From NCBI GenBank assembly GCA_037176725.1, contig JAZBRS010000029.1:46076001-46140000 (forward strand): 64,000 nt of DNA, written 5' to 3'. Positions 7,847-32,497 of the stretch are shown piece after piece (the first letter of the stretch is position 1; each line of letters begins with the position of its first letter). The stretch comes from Posidonia oceanica (taxonomy: Eukaryota > Streptophyta > Magnoliopsida > Alismatales > Posidoniaceae). A program made the position numbers and the translations under genes. Under the pieces are notes generated by a model. The model did no database searches, had not been told where the DNA came from, and saw only the letters and a program-made list of their open reading frames with translations.

Positions 7847-10773
7847 TGTAGCGATCCCGATCGGAACCAGGCTCGCTAACTTTAGCGACGATTGAGATCC
7901 GAGGAAGAGGCTCAACTCGAAAACGCTTGAAATCGAGGAGAAAAGGGAAAGATAAGACAAATCAGAGTCGCCACCACGTCTATTAACGGGAGACGAGGAA
8001 AACCGAGGAAATGCGTGGATCAACACGCAAAACCAAGCAAGGAATGCAAAGCAAAGCAATGCAAAAAAAGATAAATGCAAACAAATGCAAAATAGATGAC
8101 TCTAGCCTAGGATAAAGGCAGTATGGTCATTGCGGGCCAAAAGACAGGGTAAGGACTCCTGTTACGTGCGGGGAAGGTATTAGGCACCCCCGACACGCCC
8201 GAAGATCGGTCTTTCTAGGCTTACGCTCGCATACGCGGGGAAATGCAGGATTGAATGCCTATGTGCCTATAAATGCCTGAATGAATGCTCAAGGCGTGCT
8301 CTAAGTGGGAAGAAACAAAGCAGAGAAGTAAACGTGCTTTCTAAATGCTCAGCTGCGCTGTCCGTGTTCCGAATTAGGCGAAACCTAACCCGTGAGAACT
8401 CCAGACAGTAAGCATCACAGCCCTACATGCAAATGCAAGCGAGAAAACAAAACAGCGAGAAAACCATGCAATGTGATCGACATGTAAAGGAAAACGACGT
8501 AAAACACACAAAACGAGGCGAGAAATGAGCAATGCGCGCAAAACGATGCAAAAGAGCGAAAATAGCGCGCAAAACAAGACGAGAAAACAGAAAGGCACGC
8601 AAAACGGTACAAAAGAACGAAACCGGCACGCAAAACGAGCGGAAAACCAGGCAACACACAAAACGAGACAAGAAAATAGAAGGGCACGCAAAATGGTGCC
8701 AAAACGAGAGCAGGCGCGCAAAATGGTGCCAAAACGGCGAAGCAAAACCTCGGAAAAAGCCATGAGAATGCAAGAATGCAGAAAGTGGTTAGAAAAGGTC
8801 AAAGGGGAGTCAAAACAACGCGTGTGTAAGAACAGACGTCATTCAGGACCACTCAGAGTAGGTGTGAAGACCTACAGAGGGGAGAGGGGGCAAACGGAAG
8901 GATTACCACCTCTTAGCGACTGTTTCCCGCTAAACCGTTCCACGGTGTGTCTCGCATGCTGCCCAAAGCTCGCGATGCGATCGGATCGTGGAAAAGGGGG
9001 AAGAAAGTCACACTAAGTAGCAAATCCAAGGAAAACTCAACACAAAACACACAGGAGTACGCGAAATGGGGATTTGAATAGACAAGCAGAAAGGGGAAGT
9101 CCTATTCTACATGCTCGAAGAGACAGAAAGCGAAAACAAGGAAAACTGTGCAAATGGCATGCAAATGAATGCAATGCAGGGGTTCAGGAGGACATACCTG
9201 GAAATCCGGGAGCCTGATCTGAGATCTGTCTGGTCCATGCAGAAGAATGCTTCGCTGCGGTCGCCTGGGCAGCTTGCCTGAGAAGATCCGACGGCTGGAT
9301 CAGAAGATATAGCAGCTCCAAGGCAGAAGGGCCAGAACAGGGGAGAAGAACAGATTTAGGTGTTCAGGAGGTCCTAGGGATGTACGAAAAGGTCCTCCCA
9401 AGTGAAAGGGAGCTAAAAGTGCTTAGTGTGTGCGAGAAGATGCTAGAATGCAAGACTAAATGAATGCAGGATGCATGCAAAAACAAGAAAAAGTAAAGAA
9501 AAGAAACAGGGAAAAACCAGGAGTTCAGAAAGCATTTTGAAAAAGAAAAGGGGCTAAAAGTGCAAATTTTCCAGAAAACAGGGCTCCATGGGAAAGGATT
9601 TTGAAAACAGGGGAAGACAGAGGTCCATTTGACAAAAAACTAGGCTCAGAAAGGTATTTTGAAAAGAGGGTATGCTTTGAAAGGGGTTTTAAAAGCAGAA
9701 GTGGACCAGAAGGTAATTTTAAGAAAATTGGGGTCTAAAATGCAAATTTTCCAGAAAACAAGGTTCCAGGGAGTCTGGGAATGCTAGTGGAAGGTCTGCA
9801 TGTAATTTGGTAGGCATTGGAGCCAAGGTGCAACCTAGGGGCAAAATGGTCTTTTCACATGATTTTTTTTTTAAAAGATGCAAGGACCTATGTGTGATTT
9901 TGAAATTATGTAGGGGCTGAAAATGCAATTCAGCATGGAAAATATGCTCTGAAAATTAAATGACAGGACCACAGTGCAATTTTTGGAAAATATGGGGTTA
10001 AAAATGCAATGCAGTAAGCTAAAAATGCATGCAACAGTTACTGTCCATTTAAAATGGACCTAAATGCAAATATGCAAAAGCAGAAGGTTGAAAATGCAAT
10101 GCAGTATGCAAAAATAAAAAATAAATCCTAAGTTGCTACAGTGCAATGGGGCTACATGCTAAAACAGTAAATTACAGGGACTCAGACTGCAATATTATAT
10201 GGTAAAGTATATGCATTTAAATGAAATGATTTAGTGCAGGACCTATATGCAAAAATCGAAAACAGAGGGGCTAAAATGCAAAATATCATAACAGCACAGC
10301 ACAGTAAATGGATCAGATTGCAAATACTGAATAACGTAAATAAAAACAGCAATTTAGCATAGTATTTAATTAAAAACCAAGCAGAATAAATAGCAGAAGG
10401 ACTAAAGTGCAAAAATTGAAAAACTTAAGCTAAACATGCAATATTTATACCTAAAACTATACTGAAGAAAAATAAATGAACAGTGTTGATCGTCGACGGC
10501 GACGAGCACTGTAGCACAAAGCTTCCAGAGCTCGTGCCGTCGACAGGGGAGGCTGAGGATGCGCGGGAAGGCGGAGAGCGACGTCGGCGATCGTCCGGAG
10601 CTCCGAGGGTCGACTGGAGCTCGCTCTGCTGGTCGGAGTGTCCGGAGGAAAAGCAGCCGGCGCCGGAGAAGGAGGACTGTCCGGTGAGCTGATGACGGAG
10701 CAGGAGGACCGGAAAGCCTATTCTAAAGGCTGGGGAAGCAAGAGAAGAAGGAGAGGAAGCTAGGGGAAGCAGT

Positions 10774-10784
10774 GATTACCTTTT
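10774..10784 (-). promoter_or_regulatory. Putative 5' splice donor in LTR A
   Basis: The minus strand reads AAAAGGTAATC at the 3' edge of the GC-rich block downstream of the TATA-like box. The motif is kept in LTRs E, B and C. Function is inferred. Confidence 0.35.
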
Positions 10785-11725
10785 CCCACGCCTGAGTCGT
10801 TCCCCCGACGTCAGTGGCTTCAGCTGTCGCCGGTGGAGGCCGTCCGGTCACTGCAGACGTCGCCGGCTGCTCGCGGAAGTTGGAATCGCTTCAGAACGTC
10901 CCTCCGGTGCTTCCTGATCGACCGGACCGAAGTTCTACAGCTCAGGTAACGTTTCGGCTTTTCTGGGTTCAGAGGATGCTGCCGGAGGTCGAGGGAGGTG
11001 TCCGCTGCTCGTCGGCTTGGATGGAGCGTTCAGGGAGATTGCTGGAGGTGCGGGGAGTGATTCTGGGTGGTTGAATTGTTTTTTGGGAGGCTATAGGTGG
11101 AGATTGGGAGTCGGCGAGTTTTCTGATCAGTGAGTGGTGTAAGTGTTTGTGGTGGAGTTTGGAAGCTGTGGTGAGCGGTTGGGTTCGAGGCCGGGGCTTT
11201 GGAAAGGTGGAGGCCTGGTGAGTAACTGGGTGAAGTTTGGGAAGGCCCGGTGGACTATGGTGAGGGGAATTGCAGATGGGTGGTGTCGGGTTGCAGTTGG
11301 TGGAGGTCAGGTGATTAGGAGTAGTTTTATGCGGTGAAAAGGCAGTGGAAGATCGAGGGATGAAGGCTGGCTGTTGGGTGAAGTTGGGGGGGGTAATTGG
11401 GAGGTGGATGAAGGCCTGGAGTGGGTTTGGTTTACTGGACAAGAAGGAAGAAGATTTTCTGAAGATTTCAGAAGGAATGGGAGAAGGATCAGGTGCGGGG
11501 ATTGGCCTGAGATGAGGCTTCTCTCCGGGATACCACAGGGACTCCCGAACTCTACTCTCACTGCTCTCTTTTTCTCGAAATGGAGGGTGAAGAGGAAGAG
11601 ATCAGAGGCTGTTTCAGGTGGGAAAAACGGTGGAATTCTGGGATTGCTCTTGCACTGATTCCTCTCTGGTCTGGCATTCACTCTCGGATGGCCAAAGGGT
11701 GATCGAAGGAGGGGAAATCTGGACG

Positions 11726-11733
11726 CTTATATC
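11726..11733 (-). promoter_or_regulatory. TATA-like promoter element of LTR A
   Basis: The minus strand reads GATATAAG about 1.92 kb from the LTR 5' end, followed by the GC-rich block. If used, U3 is about 1.95 kb and R plus U5 about 3.8 kb. Confidence 0.5.
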
Positions 11734-13634
11734 AGGCCGAGGGCTGCCGGTGCGCGCGCTGGAGATTTTTTGAATTCCTCCGGCGCGAGTACTGCAGCAG
11801 AAAAGAAGCGGATGCCGGCGAGACGACAGGCAATTAAAGCCTCCCGGAATCGGGGCTGAGAGATGAGAGAGCGGCGGACGCTGTTGCATGATCTGATGGA
11901 GAGCTTGAATTCAAAAAAGAAGGAGGGAATGGCAGCTGGCCGTGGGAAGGAAGCTGTGGAAAGAAGAAAGAAAAAAAACACAGAAGGAGGAGGAGGAAGA
12001 AGGGTTGCGTGGGCTGGACTGCTGCGGGCCGAGAAAAATAAAAAGTAAAAAAGAAGAAACGGGCCGGAGGGCCCAGTGAAGAAAGGGAAGAAAGAAAAAG
12101 AGAAGTAAGAGAGAAAGAGAGGGTGGAATGGGAAAATAAAATAGGTAAAAATAAACTAAAAATAAATAAAAATATTAGAAGAGTTGTGCTGCAGATTAGG
12201 ATCTTAATTAAGATTTTTAATGGTCATTTTGAGTTGATTAATGTGTTTTGGGCCTGATTAGGGTTTTAGGGTTTTGGTTTTACTTTTAATTAGTTTTCAC
12301 TTGTTTAAATGTTTGTTAATCCCTTTTTAAATTATTTTAAAAATTATATTTCTCTTGTTGGACACTTAGGATGTTAATTAGGATTTTTTAGGATTTAATT
12401 TCCCATTAATCAGGATGTTTTTTAGATTTTTAAGTTGTAGTCTTGTTAAGGTTTTTTTTTTTTTGTCTTAAGTCTTTTTAAGTTATGTCTTGATTTTTTA
12501 TTTATCGATTTTTCTTGAAGCTTTTAGTTGGATTTTTCTAGTTTGATAGGGTGTTTCTTAAGCCTTTCAGATGTGTTTTTCTTTCCCTTTTTTAATTAAG
12601 TTTTTAACTTGTTTCTCTTATGTTTATTAGGTTAAGTCTTTTGACTTCCTTAATTACTTGTTTTAGCATTTGATTTTTTTTAATTCTTGTTTTTGGGTTT
12701 GTTTTTAATTCTTCTGATGGGTTTTTACCTTTGGTGGGTTTTGATTTTATTTTAGTTTTTTCCTTGATTTTTCAGTGTTTTCTTTTGATTTGTTTTGCAT
12801 TTTTTAGTTTGCATGTTTGGTTTTTCCTTTAGCTTGCTTAAGTTAAGTTTAAGTTGTTGATTGCTTGTTTAACATTTTTTTTTTAATTGTTTTTCCTTAG
12901 GGTTCTGATTTGTTTCTTTTGTGTTTTGAGATTTTGTAGATTTTTATGGGTTTTTGTGGATTTTTGCAAAAGGGAGAAAAGGAAAAGAGAAGGAGGGAAG
13001 AAATGGAATAAAAAGGGAAATAAAAGGGGAAAAGATAGGTTGGGGGAAAACGATTTTTTAAAAAATTCAGAAAAGGTGTTAAAAATAAAGTAAAAATAGG
13101 GATAAAATAGAGGAGGGATAGAAGCACAGAGGGGGCCCACAGCCAGACCAGAAAAAGGATAAGAAAGGGATGAAAAGAGAGATGATAATCAGGAGAGAGA
13201 GAGGAGAGAGAAAATGATAATCCCGGAGAGAGAAAAGGATAATTTGGATGAAAGAGGGTCCTAAAGGTCTTGGAATGGGGTGAGAATTGGTAAGTGGGTA
13301 GTCTAGGGTTAGAAGTCTTGGTTCTGAAGTTTTGGTCTAGTTCTAAGGAGGTTTTGGAGGGGTTTCAAGGTGTAGAAAAAGGATAGTTTCACCTAAGTTT
13401 TCTAGGGTTTTTGGGAATGGGTTAGGCTTGGAAATTCCTAGGTCTTTGGGTAGGTTTGTTGAGTGGATAGTGGTGGGTTTTCCTATGAATTTTGGTTAGG
13501 TTTTGGGGTTGGGAAGGGGGGTAAAGGTTTAGGTCAAAATGGGCTGTTTTTGAAGGGCAGAGAGGAGGATTAGGGCTAGGGTTTGGTTGGGGTTTGATCC
13601 AGCAATCACCAAGAGGGCTCCAAGGGTCTAGGCC

Positions 13635-13726
13635 TGTCAAGATGGGGTGTCAACAGATGCCCCTCCCTGAGCGAGGGCAAGCGGAGCGCGGCCGCTGCTC
13701 AGGGTTGACAAGACACCCCATCTGAC
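13635..13726. repeat. Inverted repeat spanning the 3' LTR border and PPT
   Basis: GTCAAGATGGGGTGTCAAC (LTR terminus side, from 13635) is nearly complementary to GTTGACAAGACACCCC followed by ATCTGAC (from 13704). Inside it CCCTGAGC (13665-13672) pairs with GCTCAGGG (13697-13704). The polypurine tract is therefore held within a potential stem-loop joining internal region and LTR. Confidence 0.6.
13656..13675 (-). other. Polypurine tract of element 1
   Basis: The minus strand reads CAGGGAGGGGCATC directly before the LTR terminus TGTTGACACC. A G-rich purine run at this place is the primer for plus-strand DNA synthesis in LTR retrotransposons. It lies inside an inverted repeat that spans the LTR border (13635-13726). 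Confidence 0.75.
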
Positions 13727-14200
13727 CGGCGGGAGCAGCGGGTTGCTATGGGCATGAGCTACTTATTCGGCGGATGCACCGAAGATCATAGCCCGTTGCC
13801 GCAATGCAAGATGCCAGTGCAGATGGATGCTGTGCTGTGTGTGATATGCTAAATGCAATGCAAGAGTTAGTATAAAAGTTAGTGCAGCTGTAAGAAAAAT
13901 GCTGATGCTGTGCTAGTGATACTGATGATGCTAAAGTGATATGCAGTGCAAGCTAAGAAAGTGCTGAGATGATGCAGAAAAAATGATAAAAAGGCGCGAT
14001 GTGGTGCGAATGTCCGGCAAGGAGGCCAGACTTGCACGACAAAGCGAAGGAAGATAGGGTGCAGCTGGTCCCCACCCGAGGAGCAAGCTAGCGGGAAAGA
14101 AGGGTGCGAGGGGAGAGAGGCCAACTCTCCTATCGCAGAAAGGGGGTGCGTGACTTCGTCTTCCTGGGACAAGGTCACGCCGAAAAGGAGAAAAAAAAAT
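13727..14200 (-). other. 3' region of element 1, non-coding segment next to the PPT
   Basis: I see no gene. The segment has short GC-rich inverted motifs near 13735-13800, then a stretch rich in GATGCT and GTGAT motifs (13800-13990), then ordinary mixed sequence. Short open frames here do not resemble any family I know. Confidence 0.5.
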
Positions 14201-15120
14201 GATAAGGTGACGGGCTTATCGTCCGGATAGTTTACGGTCCTATCAACCGGGAGTGACAGTTTACGGTCCTGTCAACCGGAGCAGTTGTGAGTGATAGTTA
14301 CTGGATATCAGCCGTATAACATGGTTGTGGGTGATAGTTTAGGAGTATCAGCCTAACGACAGTTTACGGTCCTGTCAACCGGTGGATAGTTTACAGACCT
14401 ATCAACTGGAGGATAGTTTACAGACCTATCAACTGGAACCCACAAACCATGAGTGATAGTTACTGGATATCAGCCGTATAACGCAATGCCGGATAGTTTA
14501 CAGTCTATCATCTGGAACGACAGTTTACGGTCCTGTCAACCGGCAGATAGTTTACAGTCCTATCAACTGGTGGATAGTTTACAGTCCTATCAACTGGAAA
14601 CGGCATTGCGAGGGACAGTTACTGGATGTCAGCCGTATAACATCATTGCGCGTGGTAGTTTACAGTCCTACCAACTGGTGGATAGTTTACAGACCTATCA
14701 ACTGGAGCGACAGTTTACGGTCCTGTCAACCGGCGGATAGTTTACAGACCTATCAACTGGAAACGCGCAATGATGAGGGATAGTTACTGGATATCAGCCG
14801 TATAATGCAATTGCGGGTGATAGTTTAGGAGTATCAGCCTAACGACAGTTTACGGTCCTGTCAACCGGTGGATAGTTTACAGACCTATCAACTGGAGGAT
14901 AGTTTACAGACCTATCAACTGGAAACCGCAATTGCAAGGGACAGTTACTGGATGTCAGCCGTATAACGTAATTGCACGCGGTAGTTTACAGTCCTACCAA
15001 CTGGAGCGACAGTTTACGGTCCTGTCAACCGGTGGATAGTTTACAGACCTATCAACTGGAAAAGTGCAATTACGAGGGACAGTTACTGGATGTCAGCCGT
15101 ATAACACAACTGCGGGCCAA
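14201..15120. repeat. Hierarchical covarying palindrome array
   Basis: About 28 modules of roughly 25 bases each contain a short stem around a TTTA- or TTAC-type loop. The arms vary together: GATAG/CTATC, GACAG/CTGTC, GGTAG/CTACC, GATA/TATC, GACA/TGTC, GATAAG/CTTATC. Groups of three to four modules are enclosed by longer arms that differ in every group yet match each other: 14320-14332 with 14438-14451; 14482-14491 with 14601-14610; 14641-14653 with 14763-14775; 14806-14816 with 14926-14936; 14967-14977 with 15064-15074. Between groups lies a linker module with a GATA/TATC or GACA/TGTC stem followed by AGCCGTATAA. The array lies in the element's 3' region, between ORF3 and the 3' LTR. No coding function is suggested. 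Confidence 0.9.
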
Positions 15121-15360
15121 CCATGGATCGGCCAGAAGATAGTTTAGGTTATCAGCCTGAGAGTGATTGATTGTTGATAGTTTCGGATATCAGCCTAGCA
15201 CGAGTTTGTTTGATGATTGATAGTTTCGGATATCAGCCTAGCACGAGTTTGTTTGATGATTGATAGTTTCGGATATCAGCCTAGCACGAGTGATTGATTG
15301 ATTGATAAGAGGGGGCAAGATCATGATGAGAATGATAAGATATCGGACTTATCAGCCGGC
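15121..15360. repeat. Short tandem repeats continuing the palindrome array
   Basis: Three near-identical copies of a unit starting GATAGTTTCGGATATCAGCC follow one another from about 15175 to 15290. The last module (15334-15353) has the stem GATAAG/CTTATC. These resemble the modules of the preceding array but lack enclosing stems. Confidence 0.8.
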
Positions 15361-15880
15361 AAAGAGGGGATGAGGTAATGATGAGAAGTTAAGCTAAAGA
15401 GGGGGATGAGATTATGATGAGAAATTAAGCTAAAGAGGGAGATGAGATCATGATGTGAAATTAAGCTAAAGAGGGGGATGAGATCATGATGAGAAATTAA
15501 GCTAAAGAGGGAGATGAGATCATGATGAGAAATTAAGCTAAAGAGGGAGATGAGATCATGATGAGAAATTAAACTAAAGAGGGGGATGAGATCATGATGA
15601 GAAGCTAAGCTAAAGAGGGGGATGAGATCATGATGAGAAATTAAACTAAAGAGGGGGATGAGATCATGATGAGAAGCTAAGCTAAAGAGGGGGATGAGAT
15701 CATGATGAGAAATTAGGCTAAAGAGGGGGATGAGATCATGATGAGAAAATAAACTAAAGAGGGGGATGAGATCATGATGAGAAATTAAACTAGAGAGGGG
15801 GATGAGATCATGATGAGAAATTAAACTAAAGAGGGGGATGAGATCATGATGAGAAGTTAAGCTAAAGAGGGGGTGAGGGA
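15361..15880. repeat. 36-bp tandem repeat, about 14 copies
   Basis: The unit contains GATGAGATCATGATGAGAAA followed by an AATTAAGCTAAAGAGG-type segment, period 36. It contains the 8-base palindrome ATCATGAT. Since 36 is a multiple of three, the minus strand shows a repeated 12-residue open frame (SLISHHDLIPLF); I regard this as a by-product of the period, not a gene. Confidence 0.9.
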
Positions 15881-16045
15881 ATGATGAGAATGATAAGATA
15901 TCAGTCTTATCGGCCGGCAAAGAAGGGGCAAGGGAATGATGAGAATGATAAGATATCGGACTTATCGGCCGGCAAAGAAGGGGTAAGGGAATGATGAGAA
16001 TGATAAGATATCGGACTTATCGGCCGGCAAAGAAGGGGTAAGGTA
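15881..16045. repeat. About 55-bp tandem repeat, three copies
   Basis: Each unit has AATGATGAGAATGATAAG, then ATATC, a CTTATC arm and CGGCCGGCAAAGAAGG. Each contains the GATAAG/CTTATC stem also seen at 14201-14220 and 15334-15353, linking it to the palindrome array. Confidence 0.8.
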
Positions 16046-16063
16046 ATGATGAGAAGAAACCAT

Positions 16064-16090
16064 CCCTATGACGCTAGGAATGTCATAGGG
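16064..16090. repeat. Stem-loop with 9-bp perfect stem
   Basis: CCCTATGAC (16064-16072) pairs with GTCATAGGG (16082-16090) around a 9-base loop. It stands alone between two tandem arrays. Confidence 0.7.
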
Positions 16091-16132
16091 GGAAGGGGGA
16101 GAGAATGATACCTTGGGGCGATCTAAAAGATG

Positions 16133-16159
16133 CCCCTGGTGTCGGGATGACACCAGGGG
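16133..16159. repeat. Stem-loop with 11-bp perfect stem (left of a pair)
   Basis: CCCCTGGTGTC and GACACCAGGGG surround the 5-base loop GGGAT. A second copy at 16917-16943 differs in the stem by a compensated base pair. Confidence 0.8.
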
Positions 16160-16249
16160 TTGGCCAGCACGTCCATGGCATCGAAAGCGGAGAGTGATGA
16201 CAAGAGTGTCGTGCTTGTCAGACGAGCAGTTTGGGGTACCAGCCCGCAA

Positions 16250-16860
16250 GGGATTCAGCTGAGGGCGATCAGCTGGGGACTCAGCTGGGGATGATCGGCC
16301 GAGAAGAGTGTCAGGTTGACGGACCTTTCGCCGAGCAGTTTGGGGTGCCAGCCTGCAGAGATAATGATCCAGCTGGGGGCGACCAACTGGGGACTCGACT
16401 GGGGTGACCAGCCGAGAAGAGTGCCAGGTTGACGGACCTTTCGCCGAGCAGTTTGGGGTGCCAGCCCGCAAAGATCATGATCCAGCTGGGGGCGACCAAC
16501 TGGGACTCGACTGGGGTGACCAGCCGAGAAGAGTGCCAGGTTGACGGACCTTTCGCCGAGCAGTTTGGGGTGCCAGCCCGCAAAGATTATGATCCAGCTG
16601 GGGGCGACCAACTGGGGACTCGACTGGGGTGACCAGCCGAGAAGAGTGCCAGGTTGACGGACCTTTCGCCGAGCAGTTTGGGGTGCCAGCCCGCAAAGAT
16701 TATGATCCAGCTGGGGGCGACCAACTGGGGACTCGACTGGGGTGACCAGCCGAGAAGAGTGCCAGGTTGACGGACCTTTCGCCGAGCAGTTTGGGGTGCC
16801 AGCCCGCAGAAGACGATGATCCAGCTGGGGGCGACCAACTGGGGATGACCAGCCGAGAAG
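16250..16860. repeat. 113-bp tandem repeat, about five copies
   Basis: The string GGACCTTTCGCCGAGCAG recurs at 16321, 16434, 16546, 16659 and 16772, a period of 112-113. Units include CCAGCTGGGG, the palindrome GATCATGATC (in one unit) and the segment TTGACGGACCTTTCGCCG. The period is not a multiple of three, so the open frames on the minus strand shift frame between copies and are not credible genes. Confidence 0.9.
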
Positions 16861-16916
16861 AGGACTCAGCTGGGGATGATCAGCTGGGGATGATACCAAC
16901 GGGCGACCAAAAGATG

Positions 16917-16943
16917 CCCCTGGTATCAGGATGATACCAGGGG
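16917..16943. repeat. Stem-loop with 11-bp perfect stem (right of a pair)
   Basis: CCCCTGGTATC and GATACCAGGGG surround the loop AGGAT. Compared with 16133-16159 one base pair has changed on both arms (G to A, C to T), keeping the stem perfect. The two hairpins flank the 113-bp array. Confidence 0.8.
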
Positions 16944-17442
16944 ATGGTCGGTGCGCCCCCGACATCAGGATGCAAAGACAGATAAGCGAGCGGACAGATG
17001 ATAGGTTGACGGACCCATCGCCGAGCAGTTTGGGGTGCCAGCCCGCAAGGGACTCAGCTGAGGATGAACAGCTGAGGAGGATGCCAAGTTGACGGACCTT
17101 TCGCCGGGCAGTTTGGGGTGCCAGCCCGCAAGGGATAATGATCCAGCTGGGGATAACCAGCTGGGGATGCCGGACGGCGGAGCTTGGTGTCGTGGGCCTG
17201 CAGATGCTCTAGGCTCCGGATTGGGTGCTGAGGACTTCGCCGCGCTGGGATGTCTGCAAGCCTGATTAGAGGGCCCAAGATAATGATGGTGATGATATGC
17301 AATGTAGCAAAGAGTCTTGATGTGCAAGCAGAAAGCAGAAACAATTTTCATTGATATGACCTTGATAAGTACAATGCCTGCGGCAGGCCAGAAATGTACA
17401 GCACAATTTGGAAAGAAGACCACATGATGGTCGCACAAGGGC
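16944..17442 (-). other. 3' region of element 1 between the repeats and ORF3
   Basis: This contains diverged partial copies of the 113-bp unit (about 17000-17170), then non-repetitive sequence directly after the ORF3 stop. I see no gene. Confidence 0.6.
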
Positions 17443-18645
17443 CTAGTCAACCCGGGCCTTCTTTGGCTGCCTGGAGTCGGGGAACAGGGGGCCGCCTGGC
17501 GGGACTTCAGTGATTGGCCAGAGCTGTCGGACTTCAGCTTCATATTCAGGGGTGCACCCCACACCTCTCACAGCTGCAACGTCTGTAGATCGGACCCCAT
17601 GCTGCATCAGACTAGCAAGCTTCTTGGTTGGGGAAGTGGTGCTGAGAGAATAAGTCCGTAGAAGCTCGGGCGCTGTACTGTCGATGAAGGCGCCCTGCTG
17701 GAAGCCGAACTGGCGCATGACCCTGATTGGATGGTACTCTACGCCTGCTGTGAGGCCTGGAAGAATGATCAGCCGCGTGTCACGCGCGCTGAAGAAGACT
17801 GTGAAGGGCTCTGCTGCAGAGGGAATGATACGCCAGGTCACAGCGTCGTCAGTCAGTGCTGACAGCCTCTCGTACTCTTCTTTGACGCTCTTGTCTGCTC
17901 TGGTACGAACGCTGCTGCAGTATGCTTCGAAGGCGTGTACTTGAGGGCGCAAGAAGTCCATCTCTAAGTGCGCAGTCAGCCAGACTTGTATGAGTGCTCC
18001 GCAACCGTGGAAGTGGCGGCAGCGATGAGAAATGCGGTCCAGCCCTCGATAGGTCTCTGCCAAGACAACTGGTGCTAGATCTATGTGCTGGGTCACCACA
18101 GCTAGCGCAATTTCTGCAACCTCAATGGCCACCGTCAGTCGACCATGAGTGAAGATTAGTTCGCCTAGGAAGCGGATGACGAATCCTCGGAGCCACAGCT
18201 CATCTCCGAGGTCAGCACGCTTGTTCATGATATCCTCAAAGTGTGTAAGGCGAAGCATAGGCTCTAGTCCACTGGTGCAGATTAGCTTCTGTTGGCAGTC
18301 TTGAGTGGAGAGTCCAGTTAGTTGGTTCAGGACTCGGAGATATCCATCGCGCCTCATGAAAACAGGCGGCCCCATAATTTTTGAAAAGCCGCAGATCCGA
18401 CGCACCTCTTCCAGTGTAGGTGTCAGCTCAGTCTTGTTGAAGCGGAAGACATGATGCGCCGGCTTCCAGAATCTTGCGGCGGCACACAGAAGGTGGCGGC
18501 TTACTTCCACATCAGCAGCCTTCAGCAGTTTAGTTGGTATGCCCCACAGGCGCAGCTTTTCACAGTCTACTTGAGTGAGCCTGCCGATCCATTCTCGCAG
18601 GGTTTCTGAGCAATGTGCGGGAGTCAGCAGAGTAGGAAAACCCAT
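17443..18645 (-). CDS. ORF3: DUF7745-like (plant-mobile-domain-like) protein, 400 aa
   Basis: This is an uninterrupted ORF between pol and the 3' LTR, in the same orientation as gag-pol. I chose the ATG at 18645 (MGFPTLL) because the counterpart at 63004 starts there too and the counterpart has a stop in the upstream extension; an in-frame start at 18750 is possible. The protein has the look of plant transposon-associated DUF7745/plant-mobile-domain proteins: an N-terminal segment on an aromatic HHVFRFN-type motif, a middle with GDELWLRGF and FTHGRLTVAI, and a basic C-terminus (KKARVD). I see no catalytic motif, zinc finger or membrane segment. About 93% of the first 332 residues match the copy in element 3. 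The molecular role is unknown. Confidence 0.72.
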   Translation of the reverse strand: MGFPTLLTPAHCSETLREWIGRLTQVDCEKLRLWGIPTKLLKAADVEVSRHLLCAAARFWKPAHHVFRFNKTELTPTLEEVRRICGFSKIMGPPVFMRRDGYLRVLNQLTGLSTQDCQQKLICTSGLEPMLRLTHFEDIMNKRADLGDELWLRGFVIRFLGELIFTHGRLTVAIEVAEIALAVVTQHIDLAPVVLAETYRGLDRISHRCRHFHGCGALIQVWLTAHLEMDFLRPQVHAFEAYCSSVRTRADKSVKEEYERLSALTDDAVTWRIIPSAAEPFTVFFSARDTRLIILPGLTAGVEYHPIRVMRQFGFQQGAFIDSTAPELLRTYSLSTTSPTKKLASLMQHGVRSTDVAAVRGVGCTPEYEAEVRQLWPITEVPPGGPLFPDSRQPKKARVD

Positions 18646-20186
18646 TACACTTGATTGCAGAGGTAGAGGCTGATGGATGCAAAGCTTGAGTGTACCTGCT
18701 ATCAATAAACAGTCAGATCTCGCAGGCATATAATCTTTGATAGAAGACAAAGTCTGAAGCTGAAAAATGTAGTTTCATATGCATTTAGCAGTTGATAACG
18801 GAACATAGCAGTTAAGCACTGATAAGCAGGGGGGATTCTGTTGCAGTCTTGCGGACACGAGGGCGAGGGCTGGCAGAAGATCTGGACCAGCGCAGCTTGA
18901 GTGTCGCCGATGTGCCTCTGCTGGGGAGAAGTACTGTCTCAGGGCCTGAGCGTGTTGCAGAGCGGAGAGATCGGCGGAAGCGGAAAGGAAAGAAGGAAGA
19001 TGCATGAATGCAAGGTGCTAGTGATGTGCTTATGATGACAAGAATATTACTGGACGAATAAGTGTGCTTGAATGGATGGGTATGCTTGGATGGATGGGTA
19101 TGCTAGGGTGGATGGGTATGCTAGGGTGCCCTCAGCATACGGAGTGCTTTGGTGCCTGCTGCAGAGGAAGGGAGTGGCCCTTGACTCACAGGGCCCTACT
19201 CAGACTCTCGGCTTATTGGTGGCGCTCCGGAACAGGTTGTTGGCTTTATGCAGGTGGTGATGTGGTAAGGACAGGCTACTGGCTGCACTCTCAGGACCTA
19301 CACCTATCCTTTCAGCTCTCTTTTCTCTTGAAAGGTTTCTCCCTCATAGGTATGCAGTCTTTCTCTGCCCCTAGCTAGGAGAGGATATGTGTTTGCTCTT
19401 GGGAGGATGTGGTAGACCCCCTTTTCAGGCTTGACGTGCTGGGGATCTCTTAGTAAAGTATGGGGGATAACGGTGCCTGTGCTTTTTGGGCTACCTTTGC
19501 CTTTTTCCTCTTCTTTTTGTTGTTTTTTTTTTTTTTTTTTGCTTTTCTCCTTTTTTGTTTTTGTTTTTGTTGTATCTCTTTTTTTTGTTTGATTTTTCTC
19601 TCTTTTTTTCCAGGCTTTTGCTATCCCCATTTTGGTGGCAAAAGAAGGGTGCTTGACATGTAATGGATTCAGGTTTCGGGTCTGCTGTGCGATGGGTAGA
19701 AGGAGCAGGGTTAGACTGCACACCCCTATCTCTAGGGCCGGCTTCTGTCTTCGTCTTCTGTTCCTTGGAGGTGCCCAAACCTAGATGTCTATTCTCATTT
19801 TTTCTCAAGCTCACATCCTAACATTTTTTTCTCCCTCAGAGGTGTATGTCCTTGCGAGATTAGGCAGTTCGCCTGTCCTTGTTGGTGGTGGCTCCCTTAC
19901 TTGCTAAGACATCTAAGTAGTGCCTGGTGAGGCAGGGTGACTCTTTCCAGAGCAGGCAAGCACTTCCGGTTGTCATCACCGGGCGAAAGATGCAATGCTT
20001 GAGAGAATGACGATGATGATTTGAATAGGGATGCAAGAGTTGAAAGGATGACGATGATGATTTGAAACAGAGAGTTGCAAGAGTTGAAAGAATGACGATT
20101 ATGATTTGAAAGGAGATGAAGCAAGAAGGCGGGAATGAAAGTAGGTATAGGTGGGGGAAGGGCATCTACAACGGGGCCGCTTTCGG
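18646..20186 (-). other. Region between pol and ORF3 of element 1
   Basis: No gene is supported. It aligns with 61529-63003 of element 3. It contains three 18-base tandem units with GGATGGGTATGCT (19064-19125), a long T-rich tract on the plus strand (A-rich in the sense RNA; 19495-19615) and several direct repeats of a GACGATGATGATTTGAA-type segment (20000-20115). It may supply a subgenomic start or splice site for ORF3, but I see no clear signal. Confidence 0.55.
19495..19615 (-). repeat. Homopurine/homopyrimidine tract upstream of ORF3
   Basis: This is a run of T-rich sequence (A-rich on the sense strand). An equivalent A-rich tract lies at 62058-62170 in element 3, so the feature is shared but its exact sequence is not. 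Confidence 0.7.
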
Positions 20187-22137
20187 CTACTGATAGTACT
20201 TCATCAGATAGCAGAGGTTGACGGGCTCAGACTGCTCGACCTGGTCCATATCCTTGAGGGTTACAGCGCCTCCCGAAAAGATCTGCTTGACCACAAAGGG
20301 GCCACGCCAATTGGGTCGGAATTTCCCTCGACCGTCAGGCAAATGAATGGCACGCAAGACAAGGTCCCCTGGCTGGAAGCTTCTGGGCTGGACCTTCTTC
20401 AAGAATGCTCTGGCCATCCGCTTCTGATAGCAGTGAGCGTTGTGCATGGCTTGCAATCTGCGCTCATCAATCAAGTTCAGTTGGATGCAGCGGTCTTCGA
20501 CCCATTCTGCTTCTTCCAACTCAGCTTCCCGCAGGATGCGTAGAGAGGGGATCTCCACTTCAACAGGTAACACCGCTTCCATGCCGTACACCAGAGAGTA
20601 CGGGGTGGCTCCTGTAGAGGTCCGGATTGATGTCCTGTACGCCCAGAGCGCGTACGGGAGCTTATCGTGCCAATCCTTGTGGATTTCTGCCATTTTCTTT
20701 AGAATCTTGACAATGTTCTTGTTTGCAGACTCCACTGCTCCGTTCATCTGAGGCCGATAAGGCGAGGATCGATGGTGCTTGATCTTGAGACTATGCAGGT
20801 ATTCTTCGATCCTTTTGGCAATAAAGTTTGAGCCATTATCAGAAATGACAGAGTGCGGGACCCCATATCGGGCAACAATATTGTTTCTGATAAACTTCTC
20901 TGTTGCCGCAGCAGTGACTGTCTTGTAAGAAGCTGCTTCCACCCACTTGGTAAAGTAATCGATCGCTACCAGAATGTAACGATGACCATTTGAAGCAGCA
21001 GGGTGGATGGCGCCGATGACATCGATCCCCCAGGTGGAGAAAGGCCATGGCGAAGACATGTTGTGCAGCTGACGTGGAGGGGCCTTGATAAAGTTACCAT
21101 GGATTTGACAATTGTGGCATCTACACACGAACCGGCAGCAGTCGGCTTCCATGGTCTGCCAGAAATAACCCTGCAGCATGATCTTCTTGGCCAGGAGGAC
21201 GCCGTTCATGTGTGGGCCATAGGTCCCCGCATGCACTTGGAGCATCAGCGTGTCAGCCTCCGATTTGTTTAGACAGCGTAGTAGCATTTGATTGTATGAC
21301 CTTCTGTACAGCTGTCCGGCCCCTAACACATACTTTGACGCCAGACGCGCCAAAGTTCTCTTGTCTGCTGCCGTGGTATCAGGAGGAAAGTTACCAGACT
21401 CCAGGAAAGACTTTATGTCTTGATACCAGGGCTGCCCCTCTGCGGGATCCTCTTCTTCTATGCTCGTGCAGTATGCAGGCTGCTCAATGCGAGTGACTGA
21501 TACATCCACAGTGCTGTCTTCTGATATAGTGAGCCAGGATGCCAGAGTTGCTAGTGCGTCTGCATACGCGTTCTTCGCTCTGTTCAGGTATGTGAAGCGG
21601 ATGCTCTTGAATTCTTTCATCAGCCTCAATAGGTGTTCGTGATACGGCACAAGCTTGGGATCTTTTGTCTTCCAATCGCCGTTCACTTGAGAAATTACCA
21701 GCATGGCATCGCCGTGCACATGCAGCTTCTGTGCCTTATGCTCGAGGGCGACTTTCAACCCCAGGATGCATGCTTCGTATTCTGCTTCGTTGTTTGTGCA
21801 GGTGAAAGTCAGCTTCCTCGCGAAAGGAGTCATCTGTCCTTGGGGCGTGGCCAGCACTGCGCCTACGCCTCGGCCCTTCTTGTTGACTGCACCATCAAAG
21901 TAGAGCTGCCATTCCTCTGCTTCTTCAGGATATTTCTGCTCAGAGTCCTCCATTGCAAAGAGAATGTCTTCATCAGGGAACTGCGTCTGGAGGGGTTGGT
22001 ATTCAGGCAGAGGGAGGTCAGCAAGATGGTCTGCCATTGCTTGACCCTTCATGGACTTCTGTGTGACGAAGGTGATGTCGTACTGAGACAATAACACCTG
22101 CCACTTAGCACATCTGCCCACCATGGCCGGCTTCTGA
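20187..22137 (-). pseudogene. pol C-terminal part of element 1: second RNase H and integrase
   Basis: It is read in a frame one base off the upstream RT. The first domain is an RNase H with the order DGA, NNEAEYEA, GDAML and NAYADALA, matching the additional RNase H of Tat elements. The integrase follows: an HHCC zinc-binding region ending CHNC, then the catalytic core with Asp at 21021-21023, Asp at 20838-20840 and Glu at 20730-20732. The last two are 36 codons apart, the DD35E spacing. A C-terminal segment with GDLVLRAIHLPDGRGKF and a final YYQ closes it. The domains themselves have no stop; the break is the upstream frameshift. Integrase joins the element's DNA to the target and leaves 5-bp duplications. 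Confidence 0.9.
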
Positions 22138-22479
22138 AATGAGGAACTTGATAGGATCATGCCGGCATAAGAGCTGTACTGGGTATGCCATCATGTAGTG
22201 TCTCAGCTTCTGTGCAGCCCAGACAAGTGACAGGCAAGTCTTCTCTAGTGTTGTGTACCTGGCTTCACATTCATTAAATTTCTTGCTCAGGTAGTAGATG
22301 GCGCGCTCCTTTCTACCAGATTCGTCATGTTGGCCCAAGACGGCGCCCATGGAATGTTGCGTGGTAGAAAGGTAGAGAAGCAAAGGTCTCCCCGGCGTAG
22401 GCGGGACCAGGACAGGAGGCTTGATCAACAGCTGCTTGATCTTGGCAAATGCAGCCTGACACTCCTCGCTCCAGTGAAT
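22138..22479 (-). pseudogene. Gypsy-type RNase H of element 1, degenerate and frameshifted
   Basis: It continues RT after the TAG at 22480-22482. It keeps GRKERAIYYLSKKFNECEAR, the helix around TLEKTCLSLVWAAQ and the RHDPI segment of the standard Ty3/gypsy RNase H. The first catalytic Asp of the usual DAS motif is replaced (STTQHSMG). One extra base near 22139 relative to element 3 shifts the frame into the second RNase H. Loss of the Asp is shared by both elements, so it predates their breakage; the second RNase H would supply the activity. Confidence 0.8.
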
Positions 22480-25148
22480 CTACGCATTCTTCCTCAAGAG
22501 CTTGAAAATGGGTTCGCAGATGGGCGTAAGCTGTGCAATGAAGCGACTGATATATTGTAAACGCCCAAGCAGACTTCTGACTTCTTTTTCAGTTCTAGGG
22601 GGTGGCATGTCCACGATGGCTTGCGCTTTCAACGGGTCCACCTCAATCCCCCTCTGGCTAACAATGTAGCCAAGCAATTTGCCAGAAGACACCCCAAATA
22701 CGCACTTCTTGGGATTGAGGCGCAGCTTGTACTTTCGTAGACGATCAAAGAGCTTTCTGAGACAGGCAAGATGATCCTCGGGCTCTTTGGTTTTGGCGAT
22801 CATATCGTCTACATAGACCTCCACTTCTTGGTGCATGAGGTCGTGGAATAGCACAGTCATGGCCCTCTGATAGGTTGCACCAGCGTTTTTCAGGCCGAAC
22901 GGCATGACTTGGTAGCAGAAGACTCCCCAAGGGGTGATGAATGAAGTCTTTTCCATGTCCTCTTCTGCCATTTTGATCTGATTGTATCCAGAAAAGCCGT
23001 CCATGAAGGAGAGCATCTTGTGGCCTACTGTATTGTCGACTAGGACGTCAATGTGGGGCAGCGGAAAGTCGTCCTTGGGACTCTCCTTGTTCAGGTCCCT
23101 GTAGTCGATGCAGATTCGGATTCGGCCATCCTTCTTGGGCACAGGTACAATGTTTGCCAGCCATTCAGGATAAAGAACGACCTTCAGAAAGTTGACTCCA
23201 AGCTGCTTCATTATCTCTTCTTTGATCATGAGCAGCCACTGTGGTCGCCATCTTCTCAGTTTCTGCTTTACAGGCTTGGCATCCGGATTTAAGGGCAGAT
23301 TGTGCACCACTATCTCTATGTCAAGGCCGACCATATCTTCATAACTCCAGGCGAAGACATCCGCATATTCTTTCAGGAATGCGATGAATTCTGCTCGAAC
23401 CTGGGTGGACAGCTGGGCACTGATGCAAACTTCTCTGACTTCCTCAGCTGTGCCGATGTTGACAACCTCCGTTTCTTCTTCGACATGGAGGTTGGGGCCT
23501 TCTGGGTCGTCGTCATAGGGCCGGAACTCAGGCAAAGGTTCGTCAGTCTTATCCATGCCCGTATCATCCTCCTCTCCATAGGCAATAAGTTCTGAGAGGA
23601 TCTCTTTCTCAAAGGAAGGGCTTGTGATGTTGAAAGAGTGCATGTGTTCCGCTGCTTGGCCCTGGTGACGCTTCAGGATGGTCACGCTCACTCGGGTATT
23701 CTTGTAGCCTCGGTGCGCGACCTCCATCCCAGCAACTCCTTCTACCATTTGCTCTGGCCTGACTGGCTCTGCTGAGTGCTCTGTTGATACTGCTGAGGGC
23801 TTAGCTGACTCTACTGCTGGTACTACTGACTGCTCTGCTAACTGTGCTGCTGGGGCCGCTGAGTCATTCTGCTCTGCTGCTGCTGTATTTACTGCTGATG
23901 CTTCCCCCTCTGGGTCTTTTGGTGTGCTCGTGGAGGGTATGCCGGACTGGCGGCTGATCTGGTCACTGCCGCTCGATATATTGCTCAGGTGAGGCATGGG
24001 TTGCACAAACCACCTAGACCCACCTTCTGGTTGAAGAGTGATGAGCTCATCTGGTCTAGGGGAGTCCGGCGCTGCTGAGTCTTCTAGGACCATGATAGAG
24101 GCATGGTCCTTTTGTAGAGGAGGATCCGTGACTACGGCTTTCCCTTTCCTTTCTGCAGCTTGGTGATCTGCCAGGTCATCTGCTATCGACTTGAGTTGTT
24201 CTTGATAAAGCAACTCTAAGTCGGACATCCAGGAATCGACCTGGGCTTCTATCGCCACTCCTTCTTCTTCGTTCGAGGGGGAGTCGACGTAGTAAGCGCC
24301 GGGGGCCTGCGGCACTGGCCCGGCTGCAAGACGGATCGTTGCCCTTGGAATCTGCATGATCTGGTTCACGGGCGCGTCCGATGGTGGCAACTCTGATGTA
24401 GATGGCCCAAATAAACAGGCTAGCGGTGCTACCGATGGATAGGCTTCCAGGGTTACTGTTGGAGAATAAGCAGGGGTGCTCTTCAGGGGGCTCAAAGGCC
24501 CGGAGAGTGTAGTGCTCAGTTGGCCTTTTGTATCAGGCCGTAACTGAGAGAGTGCAGCCTCTGACGCCATGGGGTCTTGCCATGAGAGCTGCTGCTGGTT
24601 GTCAGGAGAATGCGAAGTGGACTGCGCCAGCTGCATTCCTGAAGATGATGCTGAGGGAGCGGGCTGAGCCGCGCTGCTGACTGAGCTGATAAATGGTCCC
24701 TCTAGAGATGGGGACAGTGGCACTGATGTGGTTGTGACCGCCGGTAGCATGTTTGGTTCTGTCAGAAGGAGTGTCTCTAACTCCTGCACTGCTGCCTGAA
24801 CTTGTGATGCAGATGTGGCTGCAGAAGAGTGGGAACTTGCTTGTTCTGCCACAGGGCCTGCTGAGCTGCCTGCTATATCTGCCAGAGGGAGAGCTGAAAA
24901 GACTGACTGTGGGGCCTCTGCTCTAACCACTGCTTCTACTGAGCTGATTGGGACTGCCTCAGTTGTGCCAGACTGCTCCTCATCCGAGTAGTAGTCCTCA
25001 ACACACACCCAATCCTCTGCCGGCGCTGTGGCTTGGTAGTCAGTTGATCCCAGAGTTCCTGCACTGGTAAAGTTAGTGAGGTCTCTGGGAATGGCTGGTG
25101 CATGGGCTTTGAGCTGGAAGCAGTGATCTTCTTCGAGCTTTAGCGGCC
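22480..25148 (-). pseudogene. Protease-RT linker and reverse transcriptase of element 1
   Basis: The region begins in sense immediately after insert F. The first 560 or so codons are a low-complexity, acidic Ser/Ala/Pro/Glu-rich linker with no recognised domain. RT follows from about 23290: WLANIVPVPKKDGRIRICID, then FMDGFSGYNQ, MPFGLKNAGATYQRAM, the catalytic YVDD at 22804-22815, and the thumb. The frame stops at TAG 22480-22482, where element 3 has CAG. The enzyme would copy the RNA genome into DNA from the tRNA-Arg primer. Confidence 0.9.
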
Positions 25149-28100
25149 ATCCCCAGCAGAGTCGCCACTGTAGCGATCCCGATCGGAACCAGGCTCGCTA
25201 ACTTTAGCGGCGATTGAGATCCGAGGAAGAGGCTCAACTCGAAAACGCTTGAAATCGAGGAGAAAAGGGAAAGATAAGACAAATCAGAGTCGCCACCACG
25301 TCTATTAATGGGAGACGAGGAAAACCGAGGAAATGCGTGGATCAACACGCAAAACCAAGCAAGGAATGCAAAGCAAAGCAATGCAAAGGAAGATAAATGC
25401 AAACAAATGCAAAATAGATGACTCTAGCCTAGGATAAAGGCAGTATGGTCATTGCGGGCCAAAAGACAGGGTAAGGACTCCTGTTACGTGCGGGGAAGGT
25501 ATTAGGCACCCCCGACACGCCCGAAAATCGGTCTTTCTAGGCTTACGCTCGCATACACGGGGAAATGCAGGATTGAATGCCTATGTGCCTATAAATGCCT
25601 GAATGAATGCTCAAGGCGTGCTCTAAGTGGGAAGAAACAAAGCAGAGAAGTAAACGTGCTTTCTAAATGCTCAGCTGCGCTGTCCGTGTTCCGAATTAGG
25701 CGAAACCTAACCCGTGAGAACTCCAGACAGTAAGCATCACAGCCCTACATGCAAATGCAAGCGAGAAAACAAAACAGCGAGAAAACCATGCAATGTGATC
25801 GACATGCAAAGGAAAACGACGTAAAACACGCAAAACGAGGCGAGAAATGAGCAATGCGCGCAAAACGATGCAAAAGAGCGAAAACAGCGTGCAAAACAAG
25901 ACGAGAAAACAGAAAGGCACGCAAAACGGTACAAAAGAACGAAACCGGCACGCAAAACGAGCGGAAAACCAGGCAACACACAAAACGAGACAAGAAAACA
26001 GAAGGGCACGCAAAATGGTGCCAAAACGAGAGCAGGCGCGCAAAATGGCGAAGCAAAACCTCGGAAAAAGCCATGAGAATGCAAGAATGCAGAAAGTGGT
26101 TAGAAAAGGTCAAAGGGGAGTCAAAACAACGCGTGTGTAAGAACAGACGTCATTCAGGACCACTCAGAGTAGGTGTGAAGACCTACAGAGGGGAGAGGGG
26201 GCAAACGGAAGGATTACCACCTCTTAGCGACTGTTTCCCGCTAAACCGTTCCACGGTGTGTCTCGCATGCTGCCCAAAGCTCGCGATGCGATCGGATCGT
26301 GGAAAAGGGGGAAGAAAGTCACACTAAGTAGCAAATCCAAGGAAAACTCAACACAAAACACACAGGAGTACGCGAAATGGGGATTTGAATAGACAAGCAA
26401 GAAGGGGAAGTCCTATTCTACATGCTCGAAGAGACAGAAAGCGAAAACAAGGAAAACTGTGCAAATGGCATGCAAATGAATGCAATACAGGGGTTCAGGA
26501 GGACATACCTGGAGATCCGGGAGCCTGATCTGAAATCTGTCTGGTCCATGCTGAAGAGCGCTTTACTACGGTCGCCTGGGCAGCTTACTTGAGAAGATCC
26601 AACGGCCGGATTGAAAGATATCACAGCTTCAAGGCAGAAGGGCCAGAACAGGGGAGAAGAATGGATCTAGGTGTTCAGGGGGTCCTAGGGGTGTGCGAAA
26701 AGGTCCTCCCAAGTGAAAGGTAGCTAAAAGTGCTTAGTGTGTGCGAGAAGATGCTAGAATGCAAGACTAAATGAATGCAGGATGCATGCAAAAACAAGAA
26801 AAAGTAAAGAAAAGAAACAGGGAAAAACCAGGAGTTCAGAAAGCATTTTGAAAAAGAAAAGGGGCTAAAAGTGCAAATTTTCCAGAAAACAGGGCTCCAT
26901 GGGAAAGGATTTTGAAAACAGGGGAAGACAGAGGTCCACGTGACAAAAAACTAGGCTCAGAAAGGTGTTTTGAAAAGAGGGTATGCTTTGAAAGGGGTTT
27001 TAAAAGCAGAAGTGGACCAGAAGGTAATTTTAAGAAAATTGGGGTCTAAAATGCAAATTTTCCAGAAAACAAGGTTCCAGGGAGTCTGGGAATGCTAGTG
27101 GAAGGTCTGCATGTAATTTGGTAGGCATTGGAGCCAAGGTGCAACCTAGGGGCAAAATGGTCTTTTCACATGATTTTTTTTTTAAAAGATGCAAGGACCT
27201 ATGTGTGATTTTGAAATTATGTAGGGGCTGAAAATGCAATTCAGCATGGAAAATATGCTCTGAAAATTAAATGACAGGACCACAGTGCAATTTTTGGAAA
27301 ATATGGGGTTAAAAATGCAATGCAGTAAGCTAAAATGCATGCAACAGTTACTGTCCATTTAAAATGGACCTAAATGCAAATATGCAAAAGCAGAAGGTTG
27401 AAAATGCAATGCGGTAAGCAAAAATAAAAAATAAATCCTAAGTTGCTACAGTGCAATGGGGCTATGCTAAAACAGTAAATTACAGGGACTCAGACTGCAA
27501 TATTATATGATAAAGTATATGCATTTAAATGAAATGATTTAGTGCAGGACCTATATGCAAAAATCGAAAACAGAGGGGCTAAAATGCAAAATATCATAAC
27601 AGCACAGCACAGTAAATGGATCAGATTGCAAATACTGAATAACGTAAATAAAAACAGCAATTTAGCATAGTATTTAATTAAAAACCAAGCAGAATAAATA
27701 GCAGAAGGACTAAAGTGCAAAAATTGAAAAACTTAAGCTAAACATGCAATATTTACACCTAAAACTATACTGAAGAAAAATAAATGAACAGTGTTGATCG
27801 TCGACGGCGACGAGCACTGTAGCACAAAGCTTCCAGAGCTCGTGCCGTCGACAGGGGAGGCTGAGGATGCGCGGGAAGGCGGAGAGCGACGTCGGCGATC
27901 GTCCGGAGCTCCGGGGGTCGACTGGAGCTCGCTCTGCTGGTCGGAGTGTCCGGAGGAAAAGCAGCCGGCGCTGGAGAAGGAGGACTGTCCGGTGAGCTGA
28001 TGACGGAGCAGGAGGACCGGAAAGCCTATTCTAAAGGCTGGGGAAGCAAGAGAAGAAGGAGAGGAAGCTAGGGGAAGCAGTGATTACCTTTTCCCGCGCC

Positions 28101-32316: not shown

Positions 32317-32497
32317 TGCTGACCTAGAGCGCGTGAGAACCGGGCTGCGACGGGTATTCAAGCGGTGAGTCCTAAGAGGAGCTATCGTCGCAAATGCAGA
32401 TAGCTCAGAAGGGGAATGGTCGCGAATAGGTCGCAACAGGGGCGTCAACGAGGGTCGGTACTCAAGCTCTGGCAAAGGGAACTCGCTTACCGATCAC

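Follow-up and report, generated by a model that had tools for sequence, protein, structure and literature searches.

The window, by which we mean the whole 64-kb stretch of Posidonia oceanica DNA analysed here, carries on its minus strand an Ogre-type LTR retrotransposon with two LTRs of 5.8 kb each (Table 1). The domains recognised by Pfam follow one another on that strand as gag, reverse transcriptase (RT), RNase H and integrase, which is the Ty3/gypsy order, and a protease-like match in the gag ORF lies under the Pfam cut-off. An additional RNase H (aRH) between RH and integrase is described as an Ogre feature, and an extra ORF with a plant mobile domain is present in 57% of Ogre elements (PMC6317226). 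In the window element a match of RNase H type (PF13456, PF00075), which does not separate RH from aRH, immediately precedes the integrase. Two Ogre features are present, the extra ORF with a plant mobile domain and tandem repeats that separate the coding region from the 3′ LTR. The array that concerns us lies between the plant-mobile-domain ORF and the 3′ LTR. In a protein search with the RNase H/integrase ORF, the nearest relatives among the best 120 of 1,835 are two unnamed proteins (60%), followed by angiosperm proteins at 54% (Punica, Cicer and others); two bacterial names (Salmonella, Weizmannia), the only non-angiosperm ones among the named entries of the same best 120, are probably contamination. 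Within its gag-pol region the element is interrupted by a 3.3-kb piece (25148-28508) that matches the 3′ part of the LTR at 98% identity, and a different gypsy-type fragment with an RT domain, flanked on either side by LTR-like sequence, lies on the plus strand at 41809-45000.

Table 1. Parts of the window element and of its 3′ array, in window coordinates, with branches numbered in sense order.
Feature	Position	Strand	Detail
Ogre-type Ty3/gypsy LTR retrotransposon bearing the array	7847..39460	-	31.6 kb; self-comparison of the window, LTR ends, PBS and TSD read
Target-site duplication GCTGC	7842-7846 and 39461-39465		flanks the Ogre-type element
3′ LTR, TGTTG...CTACA	7847..13655	-	99.1% identity to 5′ LTR
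Polypurine tract AGGGAGGGGCATC	13656..13668	-	directly before 3′ LTR
Terminal module CGG-AC-GATAAG-C-CCG-TCAC-CTTATC	14201..14225	-	array end
Example type A module CGG-TT-GATAG-GA-CCG-TAAA-CTATC (S1-L1-S2-L2-S1′-L3-S2′)	14226..14249	-	81,583 exact genome copies
Closing stem, 3′ arm CACAACTGC	14281..14289	-	paired in sense minimum-energy fold
Branch 5	14320..14451	-	stem CATGGTTTGTGGG/CCCACAACCATG, one bulge, four modules; arms 14439-14451/14320-14331
Branch 4	14482..14610	-	stem CGCAATGCCG/CGGCATTGCG, four modules; arms 14601-14610/14482-14491
Branch 3	14641..14775	-	stem CATCATTGCGCGT/ACGCGCAATGATG, four modules; arms 14763-14775/14641-14653
Branch 2	14806..14936	-	stem TGCAATTGCGG/CCGCAATTGCA, four modules; arms 14926-14936/14806-14816
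Branch 1	14967..15074	-	stem CGTAATTGCAC/GTGCAATTACG, three modules; arms 15064-15074/14967-14977
Separator module F	15078..15099	-	S2 GACA/TGTC or GATA/TATC, S1 poor (C.A)
Separator F, six copies	lower ends 15078, 14940, 14779, 14614, 14455, 14293	-	
Closing stem, 5′ arm GCAGTTGTG	15105..15113	-	paired in sense minimum-energy fold
Modules upstream of the tree	15138..17127	-	four G 15138-15282, four K 15334-16026, seven GG 16225-17127
Extra ORF, plant mobile domain	17443..18774	-	last such ORF before the array; PF10536 E 7e-21 (17446-18774)
RNase H and integrase ORF	20187..22190	-	Pfam PF13456, PF17921, PF00665
Reverse transcriptase ORF	22480..25197	-	Pfam PF00078 E 4e-31
gag ORF	28519..31878	-	Pfam PF03732 E 5.2e-12
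Primer binding site TGGCGACTCTGCTGGGG	33633..33649	-	directly after 5′ LTR
5′ LTR	33651..39460	-	self-comparison and ends read

Modules and the tree that they form

The first-pass annotation had read the array on the plus strand and taken its modules as plain hairpins, a reading that was dropped because the LTRs, primer binding site and ORFs place the element on the minus strand; the sense sequence is thus the reverse complement of the strand first read. In sense, most of the ~24-nt modules could form two interleaved helices, S1 and S2, in the layout of an H-type pseudoknot. The type A consensus is C(G/A)G-TT-GATAG-GN-C(C/T)G-TAAA-CTATC, in which C(G/A)G and C(C/T)G pair to give S1, GATAG and CTATC pair to give S2, and the helices therefore interleave. 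Across classes S1 has 3-5 bp, L1 1-2 nt, S2 4-6 bp, L2 0-2 nt and L3 mostly 3-4 nt, with L1 short and L3 A-rich, a spacing that suits classical H-type pseudoknot geometry. As a sequence layout, this arrangement is present in most A, K, G, H and GG modules, and separators lack the S1 part of it in 69 of 73 cases. Both helices vary while pairing is largely kept, S1 occurring as CGG/CCG, CAG/CUG, AGG/CCU, UGG/CCA and GGG/CCC and S2 as GAUAG/CUAUC, GACAG/CUGUC, GGUAG/CUACC, GAUGA/UCAUC and GGCA/UGCC. A scan for the layout in 14201-15400, sense, returns 25 matches, 24 of which are modules, against 5.4 in 100 dinucleotide shuffles (sd 2.0, max 11) and a mean of 5.0 (max 10) when 49 pieces of 1200 nt from elsewhere in the window are scanned.

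The same scan in antisense gives 18 matches, nine of which join neighbouring modules and three of which lie within G modules (2-nt L3), so the layout scan alone is no proof of the strand. Read in antisense, a type A module has just 1-2 nt with which to cross a 5-bp helix. Wobble direction does not decide between the strands: wobble pairs in S1 number 46 G.U to 40 A.C in 122 distinct modules, 137 to 154 in all collected modules and 115 to 143 in satellite-like modules; the genome-wide outer S1 pair (T.G 8,170, C.A 4,601) and the K modules (23 single G.U to 9 single A.C) favour sense. Of the 67 outer stems, 60 have a lower duplex energy when read in antisense than in sense, which we set aside as a nearest-neighbour composition effect.

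Between 14201 and 15120 we count 28 stem modules (18 type A, one A2, two G, one K and six F separators), in agreement with the estimate of about 28 in the first-pass annotation, out of 43 in the whole 3′ region, and the arms that it quoted as changing in a compensated way (GATAG/CTATC, GACAG/CTGTC, GGTAG/CTACC, GATAAG/CTTATC) are present. Its five larger palindromes, each with a private outer stem complementary to itself, could all be located as branches 1-5. That picture was incomplete in one respect, having overlooked a sixth stem that closes the whole tree. The unguided minimum-energy fold of the sense strand contains the closing stem and the five branch stems, with an energy of -282.6 kcal/mol where 20 shuffles average -248.3 (sd 7.9; z -4.32), and the plus strand folded as RNA gives z -4.87, with 0/20 shuffles as good on either strand. 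The tree of stem modules, with pairing at two levels above that of shuffled controls, is real. Upstream of the tree lie plain perfect hairpins at 16065-16089, 16133-16159 and 16917-16943, the first of which changes from CCTATGAC/GTCATAGG to CTCATGATA/TATCATGAG in locus L013, again a paired change. Two tandem arrays are found in the same region, a 36-nt unit repeated 15 times at 15361-15890, inside which no module was found, and a 113-nt unit repeated 5.5 times at 16223-16845, which contains the GG module.

Paired change within and between families

The comparison set comprises 16 arrays, that of the window (E1) and 15 others. Twenty adjacent 10-kb pieces around the window held arrays in seven (L013, L016, L019, L022, L024, L026, L029), and ten more loci were chosen among the 100 entries at the head of a list of 1,542 places whose outer S1 pair is changed, a choice biased toward variety; genome-wide counts refer to the 2.96-Gb assembly. 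Module and covariation counts omit L001-L008 (~99% copies), L031-L037 (satellite-like) and L045 (no separator found). Besides type A, the classes are K (CGG-CC-GATAAG-T-CCG-ATAT-CTTATC), G (AGG-CT-GATA-T-CCT-AAAC-TATC), H (TGG-CT-GATGA-T-CCA-AAAC-TCATC), GG (GGG-CT-GGCA-C-CCC-AAAC-TGCC) and a GGGC class (GGGC-T-GATA--GCCC-TAAC-TATC).

S2 is fully Watson-Crick in 94/98 K, 73/73 separators, 66/66 G, 14/14 H and 32/32 GG modules, where the search patterns fixed part of S2: G and GG had two pairs with both sides free, separators had one, and K and H only part of the 3′ arm. The free S2 pair of the separators reads GATA/TATC in 50 and GACA/TGTC in 23, with none mixed. S1, left free by the patterns in all classes except GG, is Watson-Crick in 58/98 K (25 more with G.U), 45/66 G (2 more with G.U), 9/14 H (2 more with G.U) and 31/32 GG modules, and in 4/73 separators, of which 60/73 have C.A; 11/66 G modules have AGG/CCG. 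The 254 type A modules in the 16 arrays reduce to 57 distinct sequences, which pair in 92.3% of 456 cells, or 307/342 excluding the two S2 pairs, first and last, that the search pattern fixed (it also fixed L3 and part of L1 and L2, so that constancy there is not a result). Changes occur on both sides in five of the eight pairs, and sliding the partners by 1-3 columns leaves 17-45% paired. The covariation of aligned modules that the first-pass annotation had anticipated is found in these 57 sequences, with a score of 0.173 against 0.131 (sd 0.010) and 0/500 shuffles as high. As related modules are not independent, we take this as support for the pairing and not as proof of it.

In 122 distinct modules of five classes the outer S1 pair is CG in 63, TA in 14, GC in seven and AT in four, the seven GC coming from a class whose pattern fixed that pair; a search with the 3′ S1 arm free again gave GGG/CCC as the commonest partner. 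Pair counts alone are used here, as G-statistics for pooled classes are dominated by class differences. When modules were detected by S2 only and then tested for S1, 83/252 distinct sequences had it against 54.7 (sd 6.1, max 71) for 300 re-dealt 5′ flanks, a detection that also caught GATATC inside K modules and separators and on which no covariation claim rests. Genome-wide, in one context, the third S2 pair is T-A in 81,583 and C-G in 45,977 copies, with C.A in 806 and T.G in 1,036; the mixed states are 1.4% of the total, and the paired states are two amplified lineages, satellite copies included, so that they do not count as independent events. The outer S1 pair is C-G in 81,583, T.G in 8,170, C.A in 4,601 and T-A in 650, the last a slight excess, 1.4 times the 461 given by the product of the single changes. 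These changes are mostly decay of old copies. The first-pass annotation had named free change of one arm as an observation that would speak against a maintained fold, and here the record is divided: one-sided outer S1 changes are many genome-wide and the satellite-like derivative is decayed, whereas differences between families are largely paired.

The same architecture with other stem sequences, which that annotation had suggested looking for in the host genome, is found across families. Over 67 outer stems in the 16 arrays, a stem arm binds its own partner with a mean of -14.4 kcal/mol and those of other branches of the same array with -6.3, the own partner being strictly best in 60/67, with one tie among the other seven. 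Branch 3 starts from CATGATTG/CAATCATG, seen as such in five arrays and carrying one additional change in four more; the intermediate CATCATTG/CAATCATG, with one C.C, occurs in L022, L024 and L042, and the end state CATCATTG/CAATGATG in E1, L009 and L019. Branch 4 begins as CGCAAATGCC/GGCATTTGCG in L013, L030 and L046, one pair shorter in L039, L041 and L043, passes through CGCAATGCC/GGCATTTGCG in L024 and L042, and ends as CGCAATGCC/GGCATTGCG in E1, L009, L019 and L022. On the sequences, both series read as stepwise compensation between families. Imperfect branch 4 stems also exist, with C.A in L038, L044 and L047 and a mismatch in L040. In a tree of the 3′ flanks of 14 arrays (L038, L044 and L045 absent), midpoint-rooted for drawing only, L047, L040, L039, L041, L043, L013 and L030 lie outside, followed by L046 and then by the six arrays with changed stems (support 99/98), an order that agrees with the direction in which the changes in branches 3 and 4 are written above. 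The agreement is imperfect: L022 groups with E1 and L009 yet retains the C.C, and among the six the tree does not resolve the position of L019. Recombination or repeated change must therefore be assumed.

Placement of the array and a non-autonomous family

In 17/17 loci that contain the purine tract and the LTR start, the array precedes the tract in the same orientation, the distance being 518-630 nt for arrays of the main type and 880-908 nt for those of the GGGC type; the printed 44 nt for L047 is a stray match, its array ending about 537 nt before the tract. One of these families appears non-autonomous. An element of ~19 kb (L025-L027, C28:46199501-46229500) is nested in the RT region of another element of the group. 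Its LTRs measure 5,992 bp with 99.87% identity between them, and it shares its primer binding site and purine tract with the window element. Between its LTRs the RT, RNase H/integrase and plant-mobile-domain proteins of the window find no match at E 1e-8, and it retains a gag (57% to that of the window) and its own array, with S1 GGGC/GCCC. Relatives in L016 and L029 match it at ~88-94% over the inner region. That an element with no detected pol, recently moved to judge by its LTRs, keeps its own version of the array suggests a cis-acting RNA function. Private outer stems are still kept in L013 and L044, where the extra ORF (partial, 118-132 residues aligned) is 64-66% identical.

Explanations for the array

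We favour the explanation that the 3′ non-coding region of this Ogre-type retrotransposon holds an RNA structure that acts in cis and is under selection, which, taken as a whole, we consider likely. That the array is a selected RNA structure seems to us highly probable, and that its modules would be pseudoknots rather than nested hairpins, probable. The genomic RNA would fold into a tree bearing dozens of similar pseudoknots, with separators joining the branches and one long-range stem closing the whole, and the repeated pseudoknot surface may be read by a protein. As to function, the genomic RNA would most likely offer proteins a multivalent docking scaffold, for packaging or export, since many copies of one fold are presented on drifting stems by a spacing scaffold. 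Gag, which would select and package the genomic RNA, is the first candidate reader, given that the non-autonomous family has kept the array together with gag; second comes a host factor for export or stability. Packaging by Gag specifically is offered tentatively. The fullest form of the model, a three-level tree of closing stem, private branch stems and pseudoknot leaves that serves as a multivalent dock and undergoes paired change at every level, is a serious possibility that we place somewhat below an even chance. The earlier proposal of a maintained folded form is supported in part, pairing at two levels being kept while the sequence drifts in a 3′ non-coding region, and its architecture is corrected to modules that are mostly better read as pseudoknots and to a third level, the closing stem.

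Of the alternatives, a selected RNA that is nested, with S2 hairpins or with S1 and S2 as the exclusive states of a switch, comes closest to this explanation. Nested folding of four single modules gives one helix each (-3.0 to -7.4 kcal/mol), the nearest-neighbour folds forming either an S1-type helix (CGG, GGGC) or S2 (CAG, K), and separators combine a poor S1 with an S2 that is perfect in 73/73. The other classes, however, keep both helices together in most modules, with a spacing within the usual limits for the H-type, and we find a nested structure rather unlikely. Palindrome correction without selection, in which template switching during reverse transcription or repair perfects inverted repeats, is an established mutational process. 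The one-arm-changed intermediates in L022, L024 and L042 are what it would leave behind, but S1 arms of ~3 bp seem, by reasoning, too short to serve as a switch template and nevertheless show several pair types. Nor would correction account for two interleaved helices kept in most modules of five classes, or for one place and one orientation in 17/17 loci and in a family with no detected pol. It is a serious rival, though an unlikely one, in a lineage whose 3′ region is known as hypervariable (PMC7004042).

The first-pass annotation had left the choice between RNA and DNA undecided, with cruciforms or repeated dyad binding sites as the DNA-level form. RNA palindromes are equally palindromic in DNA, a GATA core prevails in S2, and the plus strand folds as well as the sense strand. 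A binding site, on the other hand, needs no paired change of its two arms, extrusion of S1 and S2 together as nested arms is impossible when they interleave, and orientation is fixed relative to the element. The DNA half of that choice is weakened, since paired two-arm change in interleaved helices is unexpected of DNA binding sites, and we regard a DNA-level feature as very unlikely. Least probable of all are ordinary hypervariable Tat tandem repeats with no selected structure. Module number does vary, the satellite-like derivative L031-L037 exists, and Tat/Ogre 3′ tandem repeats are described as seeding satellites (PMC7004042). Tandem copying nonetheless leaves the paired differences between families unexplained, and private outer stems persist where the extra ORF has diverged in L013 and L044.

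A comparable principle is seen in the multi-site packaging signals of viral RNAs and in repeated export elements, where many similar folds are read by one protein; in the model proposed here that protein is a candidate only. To our knowledge no genomic-RNA scaffold of this kind has been described. No report of pseudoknot arrays in LTR retrotransposons, nor any earlier description for Tat/Ogre elements, whose lack the first-pass annotation had presumed, was found in the open-access literature searched, and a branched array of dozens of pseudoknot-like modules in an LTR retrotransposon did not turn up there either. The 3′ region that follows the coding sequence in Tat/Ogre elements is known for hypervariable tandem repeats that are a source of satellite arrays (PMC7004042, citing Macas 2009), a paper whose main text uses neither "secondary structure" nor "palindrome" (0 occurrences). 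Lineage, place after the coding region and the birth of satellites are shared with our array, but that region is described as tandem repeats, whereas here we find a paired RNA module with compensatory change between families. The upstream pseudoknot domain of the tobamovirus 3′ UTR, three consecutive pseudoknots with a stated role in replication and translation (PMC4683447), is alike in having small tandem pseudoknots in the 3′ non-coding region of a plant RNA; it differs in being three knots in a virus rather than 28 modules in a tree, on a branched scaffold in a retrotransposon. LTR retrotransposon genomic RNAs with folds and pseudoknots are also known from yeast, where Ty1 has a validated, functionally important pseudoknot and Ty3 two potential ones predicted in gag and pol; these are single pseudoknots, with no arrays described in the accessible part of the source (PMC11381356). 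Rfam gave 0 matches at gathering score in the 64-kb window and, for 13650-17400 with E up to 5, nothing relevant, one weak snoRNA-type match being returned.

If the model holds, no LTR retrotransposon would before this have been shown to use a pseudoknot array for packaging or export, and since just two module sequences account for 127,560 exact copies, it would perhaps be the most abundant pseudoknot in any one genome. Were the modules selected RNA folds, the repeats would gain a reason in multivalency, part of such plant genomes would encode a cis-acting RNA device, and the birth of satellites from Tat/Ogre elements would be its by-product. The array would also give studies of RNA folding a natural collection of very many pseudoknot variants, and genomic RNA selection by plant LTR retrotransposons would become directly testable. 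The arrays in L031-L037 (C73:57.24-57.44 Mb) are satellite-like, with type A modules mixed with GATAAG/CTTATC at 38-61 module matches per 3-kb locus and decayed in both helices, and the satellite is probably derived from the modules of the element. The S2 variant GTTAG/CTAAC has eight places genome-wide, one in L030 and the other seven in satellite-like arrays. L013 carries a very long run of K modules (positions 900-2450 of that locus) before its tree, so that families vary considerably in module number.
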